Source: Rodentibacter mrazii (lineage in GTDB: Bacteria; Pseudomonadota; Gammaproteobacteria; Enterobacterales; Pasteurellaceae). Taken from it: a stretch of DNA of 41,772 nucleotides. A model generated the notes under the pieces. It was not told the origin of the DNA, did not search any database, and was given only the letters and a program-made list of their open reading frames with translations. Both the position numbers and the translations under genes were made by a program. Positions 31,622 to 38,203 of this stretch are shown one piece after another. The DNA is taken from positions 1-41,772 of the forward strand of contig NZ_MLHG01000050.1 in the NCBI RefSeq assembly GCF_001998825.1. The letters are read 5' to 3'. The stretch's first letter is position 1; every line of letters starts with the position of its first letter.

Positions 31622-32248
31622 TTGCTATCACAAATTAAAACCGCAGTAAATCAACTGCAAAGAAAATTCATTAATCATCAGCTCAGATCGCGTTTAAAAA
31701 ACCATGGTATGACGGTTATCTCTGCTAACTGTGTGGGTGCGTTTATTTTGCACGATCTCGGTGAACCTTTTAACTCACCTTTTGTTAATCTTTACTTAAG
31801 CCCTAAAAACTTTATTCGTTATTTGCAGAATATTGTTTTTTATCAACAACAATCCCTTGAGTTTATTGCTTCTGAAAAAAACTACCCAATCGGAAAATTG
31901 GCAGATATTGAAATTCATTTCATGCATTATCATAGTGAGCAAGAGGCAAGAGAAAAATGGCAAACCCGCTCTTCTCGGATCAATCCAGATAATTTGTTTA
32001 TCATCATGACAGATAAAGACGGGGCACAGGGTATCGCTTATGAAGAGCTGGAAGAATTCGATCGGCTTCCCTTTAAAAATAAAGTGGTGTTTACCCATAA
32101 ACCTTACCCAGACTTACGCTCTGCGTTTTACATTCAAGGTTTTGAACAACAAAATCAAGTGGGTGATTTATTTGCTTTTTCCGGTTGGAATGGCAAGAAA
32201 CATTATGATCAATTTGATTATGTAGCTTGGTTTAATCAAGATTCATAG
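31622..32248 (+). CDS. DUF1919 family protein, probably linked to surface polysaccharide
   Basis: 208-residue protein with the N-terminal pattern VISANCVGAFILHDLGEPFN followed by SPFVNLYLSPKNFIRYLQN, which I recognise as DUF1919; relatives are often found in capsule, LPS or exopolysaccharide gene clusters, but no reaction has been established to my knowledge. No signal peptide or clear membrane segment. C-terminal motifs include FIIMTDKDGAQ and FSGWNGKKHYDQFDY. Translation appears to start at TTG (31622) eight bases after AGGAG. Here it stands alone, between maeB and the sulfatase module, with no polysaccharide genes nearby. No USS occurs in it. Confidence 0.7.
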   Translation: MLSQIKTAVNQLQRKFINHQLRSRLKNHGMTVISANCVGAFILHDLGEPFNSPFVNLYLSPKNFIRYLQNIVFYQQQSLEFIASEKNYPIGKLADIEIHFMHYHSEQEAREKWQTRSSRINPDNLFIIMTDKDGAQGIAYEELEEFDRLPFKNKVVFTHKPYPDLRSAFYIQGFEQQNQVGDLFAFSGWNGKKHYDQFDYVAWFNQDS

Positions 32249-32278: not shown

Positions 32279-33097
32279 CTAAATTGCAAAAAAATACTGC
32301 CAAATTCCCATATAACAGGCAATAGTAAATAAAATCAATCCCAGTAATTTAGTGATCACTCGATCACTGATTAAATTGCGTAATTTCATGGAAAAATAAG
32401 CGCTTGCCAACGCGCCAAGCACAACAGCTCCGACAATCGCAAAGTTTACATAACCGAATTGCCAATCGGATAAATAAGGGGTGGCTAAATTTGACTGACG
32501 AGATAAATAACCATAAAGGTTACCCACTCCACCAAATACCATCATATAGTTGGTATATACCGCAATTTGTTTTGGACTGACGGATTTTAATTGTGCCACT
32601 AAGGGGGCCATAATTGAACCGCCACCAATTCCTGTAATGCCGGCAATAAATCCACCGAATCCACAGTACAACATTCCTGATAAAATTTCCGATTGATTTC
32701 GTTGTGCCGTTTCTTGAATATCTTTTCTGTATAAAAGAGTGCGCAAACCGAGTAAGATTAAAGTAATTACAAAAATTGCCGAGATCAACTTATCAGAAAA
32801 GAAAAAACTCAATTCAAAGCCAATTTGTACACCTATAATGATGCCTATTGACCAAAAGATAAGATTTTTCTTATTAATTTTAATTGACTGCTGACGAAAT
32901 AAAGCTAAATTAATAATAGAAATACACATCACAATGGTGAGAGAACAAGCAGCAATAACCTGCATCGGTAGCTGTGGGAAAAGCGTGCGTAAAATCGGCA
33001 CCAATAAAACACCACCACCAACGCCAAATAAAGCAGACATAATATTGACTACAACACCACAAATGAACAAAATAAAAAAGATTGAAATAGTTGACAT
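32279..33097 (-). CDS. TauE/SafE-family anion exporter
   Basis: Multi-spanning inner-membrane protein of the TauE/SafE (sulfite, sulfoacetate and related anion exporter) family. Starting at MSTISIFFILF (33097) it has 272 residues and about eight membrane segments. The two repeated glycine-rich family motifs are visible: SALFGVGGGVLLVPIL near residue 21 and GGFIAGITGIGGGSIMAPLV near residue 152. The start at 33097 is preferred over 33109 because GGGAGGGA, which the longer frame would translate, is its ribosome site. It is divergent from a Crp/Fnr-type regulator, with a palindrome between them, and next to a sulfatase operon, suggesting that it exports sulfite, sulfate or a desulfated by-product. 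The substrate is inferred, not shown. Confidence 0.8.
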   Translation of the reverse strand: MSTISIFFILFICGVVVNIMSALFGVGGGVLLVPILRTLFPQLPMQVIAACSLTIVMCISIINLALFRQQSIKINKKNLIFWSIGIIIGVQIGFELSFFFSDKLISAIFVITLILLGLRTLLYRKDIQETAQRNQSEILSGMLYCGFGGFIAGITGIGGGSIMAPLVAQLKSVSPKQIAVYTNYMMVFGGVGNLYGYLSRQSNLATPYLSDWQFGYVNFAIVGAVVLGALASAYFSMKLRNLISDRVITKLLGLILFTIACYMGIWQYFFAI

Positions 33098-33155
33098 ATT
33101 CCCTCCCATTTAAAACAGGAGCATTCTACAATACGAGACTCCCTTTCATTTATGA

Positions 33156-33178
33156 TAATTGTCATATTACGACAATTA
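33156..33178. promoter_or_regulatory. Palindromic operator between the TauE-family gene and the Crp/Fnr-type regulator
   Basis: TAATTGTC (33156-33163) and GACAATTA (33171-33178) are perfect 8-bp inverted arms with a seven-base spacer, ending just before the ribosome site of the regulator gene. The position suggests autoregulation and control of the divergent exporter. The odd spacing differs from the CRP/FNR pattern, so the binding protein may be another factor. Confidence 0.55.
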
Positions 33179-33188
33179 AGGATAGCTT

Positions 33189-33746
33189 ATGTGCAAAGTA
33201 CCTATTTATACGCAATTAACAAATTGCCAAATCACTCAATTCTCCGTAAAAGAAAAAGGTACATTAATTTATCTACAAGGACGAAAAACCAAGGAGTTTT
33301 ATTATTTAAAATCCGGTTTAATTGGACTTTATCACATATTAGACAATGGGAAAGAAACACTGGTAAGAATTTACCAAGCACAAAGTTACTTTGGTTTTCG
33401 CACTTTTTTTGCACAAAATGATTACCATTGTTCCGCTAAGGTATTGAAATCCGCTGAAATCATTAAAATTACACCGCTGGATTTTGATAAATTTTGGCAA
33501 CAGAATGCCTCTTTTATGTTGTATTTACTCAAACAGCTTTCTACCGAATTACAAGATGCAGAATGCCGTTTATCAATGGCAGCCTATCAAAAAGTACAAG
33601 ATAGAATCTTACACAGTATAGATTATCTCAATTCCCATTATCCTAATTACCATTGGACAAATCGCGAAATCGCCGAATTCTCTGGGTGTGAAACAGAAAC
33701 CGCCATTCGAATTGGGAGAGAACTAAAAAAAATAAAAATGAAGTGA
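33189..33746 (+). CDS. Crp/Fnr-family transcription regulator of the sulfatase module
   Basis: 185-residue regulator with an N-terminal cyclic-nucleotide-binding-like beta roll (YYLKSGLIGLYHILDNGKET near residues 39-58, GF near the usual GE position) and a C-terminal helix-turn-helix (WTNREIAEFSGCETETAIRI, about residues 157-176). It lacks the conserved cAMP-contact RS pair of CRP and the N-terminal cysteine cluster of FNR, so the signal is unknown. The protein is short; the last DNA-binding wing is minimal. It starts at ATG 33189 behind AAGGA. It lies between the divergent exporter and the symporter-sulfatase-maturase genes, 138 bases before the symporter, and is the obvious local regulator. 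Confidence 0.75.
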   Translation: MCKVPIYTQLTNCQITQFSVKEKGTLIYLQGRKTKEFYYLKSGLIGLYHILDNGKETLVRIYQAQSYFGFRTFFAQNDYHCSAKVLKSAEIIKITPLDFDKFWQQNASFMLYLLKQLSTELQDAECRLSMAAYQKVQDRILHSIDYLNSHYPNYHWTNREIAEFSGCETETAIRIGRELKKIKMK

Positions 33747-33783
33747 TCAATTTTCAATTCCTAGATTAAGATCACATTTAATT

Positions 33784-33799
33784 TATGACAGAAATCATA
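33784..33799 (+). promoter_or_regulatory. CRP/FNR-type site at class II position before the symporter operon
   Basis: TATGA-CAGAAA-TCATA has perfect 5-bp arms with the 6-base spacer typical of CRP-family sites. With the TATGCT box at 33822-33827 and a start near 33833, the site is centred about -41.5, the class II activator position, and there is no good -35. The likely binder is the regulator encoded just upstream, or CRP itself. Confidence 0.6.
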
Positions 33800-33821
33800 T
33801 ATGCGTTGTTCAAATAGGTTT

Positions 33822-33827
33822 TATGCT
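33822..33827 (+). promoter_or_regulatory. Candidate -10 box of the symporter-sulfatase operon
   Basis: TATGCT, 57-62 bases before the symporter ATG. It is supported mainly by its spacing from the CRP-family site at 33784-33799. Confidence 0.45.
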
Positions 33828-33884
33828 ACTCCTGTCTCTTTCAGAGAGTTAATTTTTATCCATCGTTAACTAGGAGCAACATAT

Positions 33885-35570
33885 ATGACTATCACTATAA
33901 TTAGTTTTCTCGTTGTAACTGGATTCGTTGGTCTAATTTCTTGGTATCAAACCAAAAATGATGATTTCTCCAGTTCAAAAGGATATTTTTTAGCAGGGCG
34001 CGGATTGAGTGCAATTGTTATTGGTTGTTCAATGGTATTAAGCTCATTATCGACTGAACAGCTTATTGGTGTAAATGCGAATAGCTACGCCGGCAACTTT
34101 TCTATTATTGCTTGGACCATACCAACAGTCATCCCTCTATGCTTCTTGGCTTTATATCTACTACCTAAATATATTCGTAACGGTTATACAACCATTCCCG
34201 AGTTTTTTGAAAGTCGTTTTGACCGCCAAACCCGTTTGATTATGTCCGGTTTATTTTTGGTGTTTTATCTTTTTATTGTCATTCCGACCGCACTTTATAC
34301 CGGCGCAATCGCTTTTAACAAAATTTTTAATTTAGAAAGTGCTTTTGGGCTAAGTTATGGTGCCGCGATCACCTATACCGTCATCGCTATTGCCATCGTT
34401 GGTGCAATTTACGCTATTTTTGGTGGGTTAAAAGCTGTCGCTGTTTCTGATACTTGGAATGCTGTTATCTTAGTTATCGGTGCATTACTTGTACCAATTT
34501 TTGGTTTAATTCACTTAGGTAATGGGAGTTTTAGTGAAGGGCTACATATTATTACAACAACTCATGTAGAAAAATTCAATGCAATTGGAAGTGAAACAGA
34601 TGCTGTCCCTTGACCAACCATCTTCACCGGCATTATGCTTGTTCATTTCTTTTATTGGACAACGAACCAAGCTATTGTACAACGTGCATTAGGCGCAAAA
34701 GACTTAGCTTCAGGTCAAAAAGGAATTTTAGTCGCCGCGCTATTCCTTTTATTAATGCCATTAATCTTAAACTTACCGGGATTATTGAGTTTCCATATTT
34801 TAGGCGAAGGTTTAAAACCTATTGATGCGTCTTATCCGGAATTAGTTAATCGAACCTTCCCTACCGTTTTACAAGGTTTCTTTATTGCTGCGCTATTTGG
34901 GGCTATTTTAAGCACTTTTAACTCTTTCCTAAATTCTGCTGCAACAATTTATTGTAAAGATTTGCTCCCTTCGATTAGTAAAAGAAAATTTAGTGATGAA
35001 GAACTCATTCTCTACGCCAAAAAAGTTTCTACGGTCATGGCAATAGTAACGATGATTTTTGCGCCATTATTAATGTTCGGAACCGATGGCATTTTCTTAC
35101 TAACCAAACGCTTTGCCGGATTTGTCAATATCCCAATTGTAGCCTTATTTGCAATCGGTTTATTTAATAAAACAGTATCCGGTTTAGCCGCTCGCATTGC
35201 CTTATTCACTCACATTGTGCTTTATTTCTGCATCGTTTGGGTATTTGATGTCAAAATTAACTTTGTCTATGTGATGGCGGCATTATTTGTGTTTGATGTC
35301 GTATTAATGTTAATTTTAGGGATTTTCTTAAAACGAACGCCTTATGAAGAAAATAAAATCAATCATGCAGACATAAATTTAACCAACTGGAAATATGCAT
35401 CGCTCACAGTATGCTCATTAATCCTTGGTTTATTCATCTTATATGCATTGCTTTCACCAATTGGATTAGCTTCCGAAAACGGCAATCCCAAATTAGTAGT
35501 TGGTATTTATGCTTTACTACAAATTATCATCTTAATTTTCTTTGCATTAAAAAAGAATAAACAAGCATAA
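33885..35570 (+). pseudogene. Sodium/solute symporter (SSS family) interrupted by an in-frame TGA
   Basis: The frame from 33885 to 35570 encodes a full-length symporter of 561 codons with about 13 or more membrane segments, including [19 protein letters not shown] near residue 32 and FFYWTTNQAIVQRALGAK near residue 255, typical of SSS/SLC5 proteins. It is broken only by TGA at 34611-34613 (codon 243), where the family usually has Trp (AVP-W-PTIFTG is expected); a single G-to-A change of TGG explains it. No frameshift or other damage is visible and the frame resumes perfectly. No selenocysteine hairpin follows. The next base is C, a weak stop context, so low-level read-through by tRNA-Trp is conceivable. 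The likely cargo is a sulfated solute for the adjacent sulfatase. One USS lies inside (34287-34295). Alternatives are recent inactivation or a sequence error. Confidence 0.7.
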
Positions 35571-35581
35571 AGAGGAATGTA

Positions 35582-37030
35582 ATGAACAATATTATTTATA
35601 TTTTACTTGATCAAGTTCGTAAAGATATGCTCGGAACTTATGGGCATAGTATTGTAAAAACACCTAACCTTGATCGTTTAGCCCGTGATGGTATCCGCTT
35701 TAATAATGCCTTTACTCCGGCATCCGTATGCGGTCCTGCACGAACCTCATTATTCACAGGATTAATGCCTTCTAGCCATGGTATTATCAAAAACGGAGAA
35801 AAAGGCGGTTCAGGAGAAATCCCTCTACAAAATCCAAATATTGCCAATGTTCAAGGATACAATTCCTTTGTTATTGGTAAGTGGCATGTCGGTACGAAAT
35901 CAGTCCCGGAAGATTATGGTATTGCCGGCCACAATTTTGACGGCTATGGCTACCCCGGTAGCCAAGTCTATAAAAATATGGTGTTTAACCAACCTCCTAC
36001 TCATTCTAATCGCTATAAAGAATGGTTAATGGAAAAAGACTACGATATTCCAGAGGTCAGTCATGCCTATTTTGGCGATAATCCACATTTGCGGGTACAA
36101 GAATTGTGTGGGTTACTCTCCGGTACAAGAGAACAAACCATTGAATGGTTTATCATTGATGAAGCAAAAAAATATATCCTGCAATCTATTAATGAAAATA
36201 AACCATTTTTCGCTTGGATTAACTTCTGGGGACCACATACACCTTGTGTGATCCCAGAGCCTTATTATTCAATGTACAGCCCAGAAGATGTCATACTTGA
36301 TCCGAGTTTCTTTACCCCTTTGGAAGGGAAACCAAATCACTACCGCACAATATCCCAAATGTGGGGAATGTGGGAAGCAAGCGAAGAACGTTGGAAAGAA
36401 GTGATCACTAAATTTTGGGGTTATATTACCCTGATTGATGATGCTATCGGTGAACTATTTCAGTTTTTAGAGCAGCATCAGCTGTACGACAACACCTTTT
36501 TAGTTGCAACGGCCGATCATGGTGATGCGATGGGAGCACACAAAATGATTGAAAAAGGGGAGTTTATGTTCGACACCACCTACAATATTCCGTTGATTGT
36601 TAAAGATCCTAAATCTTCTCGAATCAACGAAGTAGATGACAATCTGGTTTATCTCCATGATTTAACTTCCACGGTGTATGATGTGGCGAATCAAGCGATC
36701 CCTCAAACTTTCCAAGGTGAGAGTATCCTACCGATAACACGCCGGCAGCAAAATAATCAACGTAAGGGGTTGCTATGCCAGCTTGCCGGTCATTTTGTTT
36801 ATTTTGAACAACGAATGTGGCGACGTAAAGACTATAAATTAGTTTTTAATGCAACTGATTACGGAGAGCTTTACAATATAGAACAAGATCCGGGAGAAAT
36901 GCACAATTTATTTTATGATTCCCAATATCAAGCAATCAAAAAAGAAATGTTGCAGGAAATGCATCAGGAAATGAAACGGTTAAATGATCCGTTAGAAAAT
37001 TGGCTTTATCGGATCATTGACGAAATCTAA
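35582..37030 (+). CDS. Sulfatase of the formylglycine-dependent type, predicted cytoplasmic
   Basis: 482-residue hydrolase of sulfate esters in the alkaline phosphatase superfamily. Cys50 in SVCGPARTSLFTG matches the C-x-P-x-R motif whose cysteine is converted to formylglycine. Metal-site residues include Asp10 in ILLDQVR and Asp312-His313 in ATADHGDAMG; the conserved lysine-histidine pair is in GKWHVG near residue 98. The C-terminal GELYNIEQDPGEMHNL is typical of the family. There is no signal peptide: the catalytic strand starts at residue 4, so the enzyme should act in the cytoplasm, fitting with an importer rather than a secreted enzyme. It starts 11 bases after the symporter. Its substrate cannot be read from the sequence. 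Maturation should depend on the radical SAM enzyme that follows. Confidence 0.88.
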   Translation: MNNIIYILLDQVRKDMLGTYGHSIVKTPNLDRLARDGIRFNNAFTPASVCGPARTSLFTGLMPSSHGIIKNGEKGGSGEIPLQNPNIANVQGYNSFVIGKWHVGTKSVPEDYGIAGHNFDGYGYPGSQVYKNMVFNQPPTHSNRYKEWLMEKDYDIPEVSHAYFGDNPHLRVQELCGLLSGTREQTIEWFIIDEAKKYILQSINENKPFFAWINFWGPHTPCVIPEPYYSMYSPEDVILDPSFFTPLEGKPNHYRTISQMWGMWEASEERWKEVITKFWGYITLIDDAIGELFQFLEQHQLYDNTFLVATADHGDAMGAHKMIEKGEFMFDTTYNIPLIVKDPKSSRINEVDDNLVYLHDLTSTVYDVANQAIPQTFQGESILPITRRQQNNQRKGLLCQLAGHFVYFEQRMWRRKDYKLVFNATDYGELYNIEQDPGEMHNLFYDSQYQAIKKEMLQEMHQEMKRLNDPLENWLYRIIDEI

Positions 37031-37096
37031 CATATTGAGAAAGTAATTAGGCGAGCATAAGGTTCGTCTAATTACATTGAGGAGATAACCTATTTT

Positions 37097-38203
37097 ATGC
37101 AAAAAGCAAATTTTCATTTGATGGCAAAACCTTCTAGCTTTCATTGCAATATCAAATGCGAATATTGCTTTTACTTATCTAAGGAAAATCAGCTTTCTTC
37201 TCATCAATTTATGGATGACCATACCTTAAAAAATTATATAAAACATTACATTCAATCCACTCAGCAACAACGTGTTGAATTTGTCTGGCAAGGGGGAGAG
37301 CCCACTTTAATGGGGCTTGATTTTTATAAAAAGGCCGTACAATATCAGCAACAATTTAGTCAAGGTAAACATATTACCAATGCGCTACAAACTAATGGTA
37401 TCGCCCTCAATCGACAATGGGCAGATTTTTTCAAACAACATCAATTTTTAATTGGGATTTCCATTGATGGGCTAAGCGATATTCACGATCAGTATAGAAT
37501 CTCAACCAATGGAAAACCCACTTACGAAAAAGTCAAACAAAGCATTGAATTATTACTCAATGCCAATGTTGAATTTAATACACTCACCGTTGTTAATAAT
37601 CAAAATTGGAATAAAGGAAAAGAAACTTATCAAGCCCTAAAATCTTTGGGAAGTCGATTTATGCAATTTATTCCTATTGTGGAACAACATCAAGGTCAAA
37701 TACAATCATTTTCAACACCTCCCGAAGGTTACGGAAAATTTTTGACTGATGTTTTTTATGAATGGCTTCCTGATCGTGGGACTATTTTTGTCATTGAGTT
37801 TGATAATCTATTGGGTCAGTGGTTAGGCTATCCCGCTAATAATTGTGTTTTCCGCCCAACCTGCGGCAGCTCCATGATTGTAGAAGCTAATGGCGATGTA
37901 TATAGTTGCGATCATTTTGTTTACCCCAAATACAAAGTGGGAAATCTAAATCAACAAAATCTGGCAAAGATTGCACTATCACCAGAACAACAGCAATTCG
38001 GTCAGAATAAGCTCTCTACCCTATCAAACTATTGCCTACAATGTAAATTTCGCTTACTCTGTCACGGAGGTTGCCCTAAACATCGTATTGTTACCCAGCC
38101 TAAAGGTTATCCCCATAATTATCTTTGTCCGTCTTATCGGTATTTTTTTAGTGAAACATCGGGTATAATGCGACAAATGAGCGAGCAAATTCGTTTCATA
38201 TAA
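37097..38203 (+). CDS. Anaerobic sulfatase-maturating enzyme (radical SAM/SPASM)
   Basis: Radical SAM enzyme that oxidises the sulfatase active-site cysteine to formylglycine without oxygen. The 368-residue protein has the radical SAM cluster CNIKCEYC at Cys17, Cys21 and Cys24, the SAM-contact EFVWQGGEPTLMG near residue 62, SISIDGL-like ISIDGLSDIHD near 122, and a C-terminal SPASM region with cysteines in CVFRPTCGSS, YSCDHFVYPKYKVGNL and CLQCKFRLLCHGGCP, for two more [4Fe-4S] clusters. It lies 66 bases after the sulfatase on the same strand, the usual pairing. The ribosome site (GGAG at 37081) is a little far from the ATG. It resembles AtsB/AslB-type proteins; the partner sulfatase has Cys rather than Ser. 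Confidence 0.9.
   Translation: MQKANFHLMAKPSSFHCNIKCEYCFYLSKENQLSSHQFMDDHTLKNYIKHYIQSTQQQRVEFVWQGGEPTLMGLDFYKKAVQYQQQFSQGKHITNALQTNGIALNRQWADFFKQHQFLIGISIDGLSDIHDQYRISTNGKPTYEKVKQSIELLLNANVEFNTLTVVNNQNWNKGKETYQALKSLGSRFMQFIPIVEQHQGQIQSFSTPPEGYGKFLTDVFYEWLPDRGTIFVIEFDNLLGQWLGYPANNCVFRPTCGSSMIVEANGDVYSCDHFVYPKYKVGNLNQQNLAKIALSPEQQQFGQNKLSTLSNYCLQCKFRLLCHGGCPKHRIVTQPKGYPHNYLCPSYRYFFSETSGIMRQMSEQIRFI

Follow-up and report, generated by a model that had tools for sequence, protein, structure and literature searches.

A cluster of five neighboring genes in the window, i.e. the whole 41,772-nucleotide contig NZ_MLHG01000050.1 of Rodentibacter mrazii (Pasteurellaceae), encodes a TauE/SafE-family anion exporter (TauE), a regulator with the CRP fold, an SGLT-like sodium:solute symporter, a sulfatase, and an anaerobic sulfatase-maturating enzyme (maturase). 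We consider it probable (around 0.72) that this cluster represents the core of a regulon for a small sulfated sugar, combining intracellular desulfation with sulfate export. In the proposed mechanism, a dedicated CRP-fold activator would bind the operator TATGA-N6-TCATA, centered near -41.5, and switch on divergent units; the SGLT-like Na+ symporter would import an intact monosaccharide sulfate; the cytoplasmic formylglycine sulfatase, once matured by the anaerobic maturase, would free the sugar; and TauE would export the freed sulfate. Gene content, co-occurrence, the operator, the -10 spacing, and family membership were computed, and we infer the regulator-operator pairing, activation, transport, sulfate as the TauE cargo, and the substrate.

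Gene content and conservation of the unit

The five genes, first proposed as one functional unit in an initial annotation of this sequence, were all recovered at their positions from open reading frames and domain profiles. Their co-occurrence was surveyed across 140 Pasteurellaceae genomes from 43 genera (G handles below denote genomes and L handles loci), with cut-offs of E≤1e-30 for the sulfatase and TauE, E≤1e-100 for the symporter, E≤1e-60 for the maturase, and E≤1e-20 for the regulator. All five genes were found in 65 of the 140 genomes, none in 62, and a mixture in 13, counts for which Fisher values are descriptive only and not independent, the genomes and loci being related and several loci coming from one species. 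The module is strongly confirmed as a five-gene unit. Individually, the sulfatase was matched in 69 genomes, the maturase in 75, TauE and the regulator in 74 each, and the symporter in 72, or 65 once seven genomes with only 42-43% identical paralogs are excluded. The TauE and regulator genome sets are identical (74/74), and of the 69 sulfatase-matching genomes, 68 also match TauE.

Gene neighborhoods were compared across named loci of the Pasteurellaceae type, 43 in all, of which one is titled Pseudomonas stutzeri and several come from the same species. In 42 of them, no more than 160 bases separate the sulfatase from the symporter upstream of it; the exception is L032, whose contig begins at the sulfatase. 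The fetched stretch includes TauE in 30 loci, the regulator in 28, the maturase in 27, and all five genes in 25. Module copies occur in records named Haemophilus parainfluenzae, Aggregatibacter, and Mannheimia, and at least four gene orders are seen: that of the window and Mannheimia, one with the regulator after the sulfatase, one in Gallibacterium with a ROK kinase, and one in Conservatibacter with TauE and the regulator downstream. No tie between TauE and an unrelated pathway was seen in the loci looked at, where the gene is linked to sulfatase genes, the maturase, or the regulator; neither of the two outcomes named in the initial annotation as refuting the unit was thus encountered. Linkage to an aldose epimerase (16 loci) was set aside as weak because in many loci this gene adjoins two genes, presumably infC and rplT, and may belong to the site.

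Broken or fused copies were found in L059, L065, L068, L071, and L075 among the named loci. In genomes G062-G064, only sulfatase remnants are left, from which the nucleophile region is missing; the maturase is unmatched there (E≤1e-60), and the TauE and regulator matches persist. Among these remnants in Haemophilus-type genomes (L068 and G062-G064), the symporter and sulfatase of L068, a record titled Haemophilus aegyptius, are apparently fused by a deletion.

The window sulfatase carries CGPAR at residues 50-54, with C50, P52, and R54 invariant in an alignment of 30 homologs. Its Pfam Sulfatase domain and this nucleophile motif, given in the cited passages of PMC10154612 as C/S-X-P/A-S/X-R, place it among S1 formylglycine sulfatases. 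The fold starts at residue 3 in an AlphaFold2 (AF2) model (predicted local distance difference test, pLDDT, 83.7), and no leader was visible, no signal-peptide predictor having been run; by sequence the enzyme thus looks cytoplasmic, as first annotated. It is the only sulfatase match in its own genome at E≤0.001. The maturase has the radical SAM motif CX3CX2C (CNIKCEYC) and the domains PF04055 and PF13186, scores above the TIGR03942 cut-off, and matches PDB 4k37 (E 7e-61).

In trees of the sulfatase and of the maturase, the window groups with Mannheimia and Lonepinella (supports 100/99 and 99/96), and Rodentibacter myodis (G121, identical to L046 over 4440 bases), of the same genus, falls elsewhere. 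Movement of the cassette between lineages is probable. Both enzymes are nearly identical between a Lonepinella koalarum metagenome-assembled genome (MAG; L032) and Mannheimia haemolytica (L031), through either recent transfer or MAG contamination. L051 (NCTC11607 contig 1), the record titled Pseudomonas stutzeri, groups among Aggregatibacter in the sulfatase tree and looks mislabelled.

Regulator, operator, and alternative sulfatase units

Counts of 5-mer dyads upstream of module genes yielded TATGA-N6-TCATA, which is present in all 40 TauE upstream regions. Scanning 64 family loci (968,003 bases) for exact copies yielded 91 sites in 53 loci, compared to 2.5 expected from base composition, although sites inherited together are not independent. 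Nearly all of them (87) stand at TauE, symporter, regulator, ROK, maturase, or sulfatase genes, three more at a Tct-type unit (L087-L089), and one elsewhere (L036:145). Control scans returned at most 4 sites with spacings other than 6 and at most 7 with permuted half-sites, and 26 loci of other phyla, Vibrio, and E. coli (360,258 bases) gave a single site. The window itself has two exact sites, with 0.08 expected and none of 100 shuffles reaching two. The operator also precedes a ROK gene unlinked to the module in four of four Avibacterium loci (L138-L141), two of which carry it upstream of a further transporter-sulfatase unit; the genus follows from coordinates that L056 shares with G025 and L060 with G028. 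Among 41 maturase upstream regions, seven have it (L085-L089, L091, and L092, where the maturase is beside TauE or the Tct unit) and the other 34 do not. It is likewise missing at three separately located regulator genes (L100, L101, and L103), and autoregulation is therefore not general.

A TATAAT-like box (at least 4/6) starts 20-25 bases past the operator in 71 of 83 unique regions, compared to 15-31 in other six-base windows, and is seen in 40/40 TauE and 7/7 maturase regions; both window boxes are at offset 23. This offset puts the dyad near -41.5, the position of class II activators, and suggests class II activation. Of the 40 TauE upstream regions, 14 also contain a TGTGA-N6-TCACA dyad, so that cAMP-CRP (cAMP, cyclic AMP) may co-regulate some units; no such site was found near the module in the window.

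The regulator belongs to the CRP superfamily, with DNR, a Crp/Fnr protein, and CRP as its closest solved chains. Initially described as a Crp/Fnr-type regulator between divergent genes, it has the CRP fold and a PF00027 domain and lacks the cAMP residues of CRP and the cysteine cluster of FNR. FNR is marked by N-terminal cluster-binding cysteines, and no such cluster is present in the window regulator, which has only C2 and C13 near its N-terminus. The residues contacting cAMP in CRP, which we take to be E72 and R82, are replaced in 40 of 40 aligned copies, with FG(F/Y)RT and YHC at those positions, and the NCBIfam CRP model gives 51.9 vs a cut-off of 266; the regulator is probably not cAMP-responsive. 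Its recognition helix has GCETET.IR in 40 of 40 copies, which in CRP numbering presumably corresponds to a change of R180 to Thr with E181 and R185 kept. Since R180 of CRP contacts the G of TGTGA, this change fits a shift from TGTGA to TATGA, and the regulator would pair with TATGA-N6-TCATA. Overall, it resembles CRP and FNR in its cyclic nucleotide-binding fold, in a dyad with the N6 spacing of TGTGA-N6-TCACA, and in class II-like promoter spacing, but differs from CRP in probably reading TATGA and in having R180, E72, and R82 (CRP numbering) replaced. Truncation of the regulator by a poly-A slip near 33729 was rejected, as relatives end at nearly the same place.

TauE, the regulator, and the maturase are also found without this sulfatase in six family genomes, and in four of these they enclose another sulfatase (L085-L088). 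In L086 and L085 this is a sulfatase of 469 or 470 residues with a YidK-like symporter, and in L087 and L088 one of 453 or 456 residues with a Tct-type transporter (the TctA family being scanned for L087). The units of L088, where the first gene is in pieces, and L089 are homologous (sulfatase 84-87%, TctA 82-84%). G106 carries the Tct-type unit together with the maturase in L089, and TauE and the regulator separately in L090. G026 has TauE and the regulator in L098 and a separate, glycosaminoglycan-like cluster without the operator in L097, with GH88, a 540-residue sulfatase whose N-terminus resembles a signal peptide, and its maturase.

We also considered a broader scenario, which we hold as tentative and rather doubtful as a whole. 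A Pasteurellaceae-wide sulfatase regulon would be governed by a hitherto undescribed CRP-fold activator that senses the sulfated sugar or the released sulfate, not cAMP, and reads TATGA-N6-TCATA; swappable importer-sulfatase cargos would share a maturase, a sulfate exporter, and a sugar kinase; commensals and pathogens would thereby scavenge, inside the cell, galactose (Gal) or N-acetylgalactosamine (GalNAc) sulfates derived from host mucin or chondroitin; and the symporter-sulfatase cassette would have passed between Fusobacteriota, an Anaerococcus, and Pasteurellaceae.

Separately, clusters in L093, L096, L097, L102, and L143 combine GH88, a phosphotransferase system (PTS), a LacD-like aldolase, a 540-residue sulfatase, and a maturase, with AgaS in most and no operator, and are apparently dedicated to the use of glycosaminoglycan disaccharides. 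Vibrio homologs (52-56%; L076-L079 and L081) have as neighbors a DUF2264 protein, additional sulfatases, and ABC transporter genes of the peptide type (families as scanned in L076).

Substrate and competing explanations

The solved structures closest to the Mannheimia symporter ortholog are sodium/glucose cotransporters (2xq2, E 3.6e-44), the Vibrio one (2xq2 and 3dh4, which we take to be vSGLT) ranking first. At the column of 2xq2 E88, presumably a galactose contact, Thr is found in 10/10 module symporters and Glu in 5/5 symporters of the YidK group (alignment A2), and the loss of a negative charge at this position would suit an anionic sugar. Beyond the family, the symporter-sulfatase pair is conserved in Fusobacteriota (sulfatase 59-78% identical to the window, symporter 58-68% to Mannheimia), with matches at E≤1e-120 in 21 of 98 Fusobacteriota genomes, compared to a single one among 249 from the Anaerococcus order. 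The pair is followed, in nine loci of Fusobacteriota (L125-L132 and L137), by genes for a ROK kinase, an AgaS-like protein, an aldolase resembling GatY, and a PfkB kinase; a sugar released into the cytosol without a phosphate would require a kinase. Another locus, L124, has a lacto-N-biose phosphorylase, which we assume acts on galacto-N-biose, and TauE near by. The substrate is best read as a monosaccharide sulfate, and on account of the Fusobacteriota run and the L124 phosphorylase the sugar may be galacto-configured (GalNAc or Gal sulfate).

Besides the relatedness of genomes and loci noted above, several observations weigh against reading the cluster as the core of a sulfated-sugar regulon. 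The importer is interrupted in the window, where the symporter consists of two open reading frames in one frame separated by TGA at 34611-34613. Across the family, the -10 box is found in only 28 of 42 symporter regions; the maturase is of a second type, 45-50% identical to that of the window, in 15 of the 65 full genomes (divergent beside TauE in the loci fetched, L091 and L092, for G128 and G059); and G024 and G066 keep a maturase match with a broken sulfatase. The AF2 sulfatase model best matches SpAS1 (top) and PsS1_NC at 24-26% identity, too distant to fix specificity. In L127, the one locus to which curated models for the Fusobacteriota run were applied, the AgaS-like protein falls under its cut-off (414.3 vs 529.2), PfkB passes 1-phosphofructokinase (304.1 over 292) and fails the tagatose-6-phosphate kinase models (252.8 vs 469 and 233.3 vs 409.55), and the aldolase passes the fructose model (345 over 343.05) as well as the tagatose one (452.3 over 443.55). 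The Gallibacterium genomes (G052-G054) have a ROK kinase, for which the best model is ROK glucokinase, below cut-off, and no AgaS match. Lastly, queries for AgaS and ROK (E≤1e-40) and for GatY (E≤1e-60) found no match in the window genome, PfkB and LacD-type aldolases not being among the queries. A tagatose (AgaS/GalNAc) pathway in this genome was thus rejected on these three queries. As the cluster also has no sugar-processing gene of its own, its first description as self-contained is not supported.

That the cluster in this genome is a decaying remnant without present function has slightly less than even odds. The initial annotation listed a sodium symporter and overlooked the split; the SSF domain (PF00474) is present in both pieces, and a single match, 84% identical to a Mannheimia protein, spans both with one TGA inside. 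At the TGA column, an alignment of named loci has Trp in 43 rows and Ile in two paralogs; in a wider one, in which some of the 74 rows are the same genome taken twice, Trp stands in 71, Ile in two distant paralogs (~40% identical), and the one stop belongs to L001, which is the window genome itself. The stop is either a true nonsense change or an assembly error, and a lone stop may be the latter; otherwise, import is probably lost in this genome. Stops or splits in the sulfatase or symporter were also found in G024, G062, G066, and G079, with a sulfatase remnant in G063, and module damage is therefore not unique to the window genome. Conversely, the remaining four reading frames are open, both window operators are exact, and relatives carry intact symporter copies.

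The same machine might instead serve a gluco-configured sugar sulfate, e.g. the 6-sulfate of N-acetylglucosamine (GlcNAc), delivered to the housekeeping GlcNAc route with no extra catabolic gene needed in Pasteurellaceae. Consistent with this, AgaS, ROK, and GatY were matched at the cut-offs used in only 38, 13, and 2 of the 140 family genomes, and both the AgaS-less Gallibacterium module and the fructose-phosphate matches of the L127 PfkB and aldolase point the same way. In Pasteurellaceae, the freed sugar may enter the Leloir pathway if it is galactose, or be handled by Nag enzymes, which the family would be expected to have, if it is GlcNAc. The proposed structure-guided placement of the sulfatase provided fold relatives, including the GlcNAc-6S enzymes BT3177 and BT4656, but no substrate-defining subfamily: in a Foldseek search against the PDB, none of the matches listed exceeded 26% identity, and a viral structure library returned giant-virus proteins of sulfatase or phosphatase fold at 10-19% identity (seven matches, E≤0.001). 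Set against a gluco-configured substrate are the AgaS-family protein and the aldolase passing the tagatose model in the Fusobacteriota run, along with the L124 lacto-N-biose phosphorylase, and we regard it as unlikely.

Import and desulfation of a small non-sugar sulfate ester, such as an aryl, steroid, or choline-like host metabolite, would agree with SpAS1 as the top fold match and with the best NCBIfam label of the sulfatase, 'arylsulfatase' PRK13759, albeit far below cut-off (228.6 vs 481), but the importer is closest to sodium/glucose cotransporters and a sugar kinase, sugar isomerase, aldolase, or aldose epimerase adjoins the module in several lineages, making this very improbable. Least probable of all is sulfur scavenging, with sulfate rather than carbon as the gain: the predicted reaction does release sulfate inside the cell, but TauE accompanies nearly every sulfatase and has the same operator.

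Related systems and the cluster in the window

Systems of this kind are already known, namely a pneumococcal island that includes a TauE-family protein and the yidJ-yidK pair of E. coli; the operator is new here. An accessory island of Streptococcus pneumoniae unites, in the cited passages, a PTS, a ROK protein, a sulfatase, a sulfatase-modifying factor, and a TauE-family protein; sulfatase activity was not detected with the substrate tried, and deletion of the ROK gene raised sulfatase and PTS transcripts (PMC3283741). It resembles the module in bringing together importer, sulfatase, maturation factor, and TauE-family protein, a likeness in gene content, but relies on PTS import and, in these passages, no CRP-fold regulator is mentioned (PMC3283741). 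In E. coli K-12 (L084), a putative sulfatase, YidJ, similarly adjoins an SSS symporter, YidK, which unlike the module symporters with their Thr keeps Glu at the 2xq2 E88 position; no TauE or maturase is annotated in 9.5 kb around, and with the sulfatase 27% identical, and the symporter 39% to that of Mannheimia, YidJ/YidK was rejected as an orthologous system.

Several Bacteroides thetaiotaomicron carbohydrate sulfatases of S1_11, S1_15, and S1_16 are described, in the portions of the review cited, as active on sulfated monosaccharides (PMC10154612). They are formylglycine S1 enzymes like that of the window, but several are surface or periplasmic (PMC10154612), whereas the window enzyme is without visible leader and 19-22% identical to the BT chains among the matches listed. 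For GalNAc, the Shewanella Aga pathway replaces the PTS with the permease AgaP and the kinase AgaK, along with AgaS, according to the cited portions of PMC2996990; as described, this permease and kinase logic parallels the Fusobacteriota run, and unlike the module no sulfatase is mentioned there.

The regulator, the operator, and the family-wide cassette were not found described in the titles and abstracts listed by searches of the open-licence PubMed Central (PMC) literature. The use of sulfated host glycans is treated in the cited parts of one review via surface and periplasmic Bacteroides sulfatases (PMC10154612), and the module would represent a cytoplasmic-type counterpart with its own regulator and operator, complete in 65 of the 140 sampled Pasteurellaceae genomes. 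If correct, Pasteurellaceae would gain a nutrient source not found in those titles and abstracts, the operator would help to locate additional sulfatase units, and the CRP superfamily would face a new question about its effectors.

Within the window genome (G000), an assembly of 2.48 Mb in 135 contigs of which the window is one (G000:C83), the cluster is flanked by a DUF1919 gene and rsuA (Table 1).

Table 1. Features of the sulfatase cluster, in window coordinates
Feature	Coordinates	Strand	Details
TauE/SafE-family anion exporter, probable sulfate/sulfite exit	32279..33109	-	PF01925 137.9 bits, E 5.7e-40, profile 1-237 of 237
Operator TATGA-TAATTG-TCATA between TauE and regulator genes	33151..33166		TAGAAT box on TauE side starts 23 bases past operator
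CRP-fold regulator, 185 aa, predicted activator	33189..33746	+	PF00027
Operator TATGA-CAGAAA-TCATA upstream of symporter-sulfatase genes	33784..33799		TATGCT box starts 23 bases past operator
SGLT-like sodium:solute symporter, N-terminal piece, 242 aa, closed by in-frame TGA	33885..34613	+	PF00474 99.6 bits
Same SGLT-like symporter, C-terminal piece, 311 aa, same frame	34635..35570	+	PF00474 65.6 bits
Cytoplasmic-type S1 formylglycine sulfatase, 482 aa	35582..37030	+	PF00884 153.8 bits and SGSH_C
Anaerobic sulfatase-maturating enzyme, radical SAM and SPASM domain	37097..38203	+	TIGR03942 501.6 bits vs cut-off 349.45

The DUF1919 gene (window 31622-32248), a strong match at 275.5 bits, adjoins TauE. 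Between the sulfatase and the maturase, an inverted repeat with 11 of 12 bases paired (window 37043-37075) may form an attenuator or processing hairpin.

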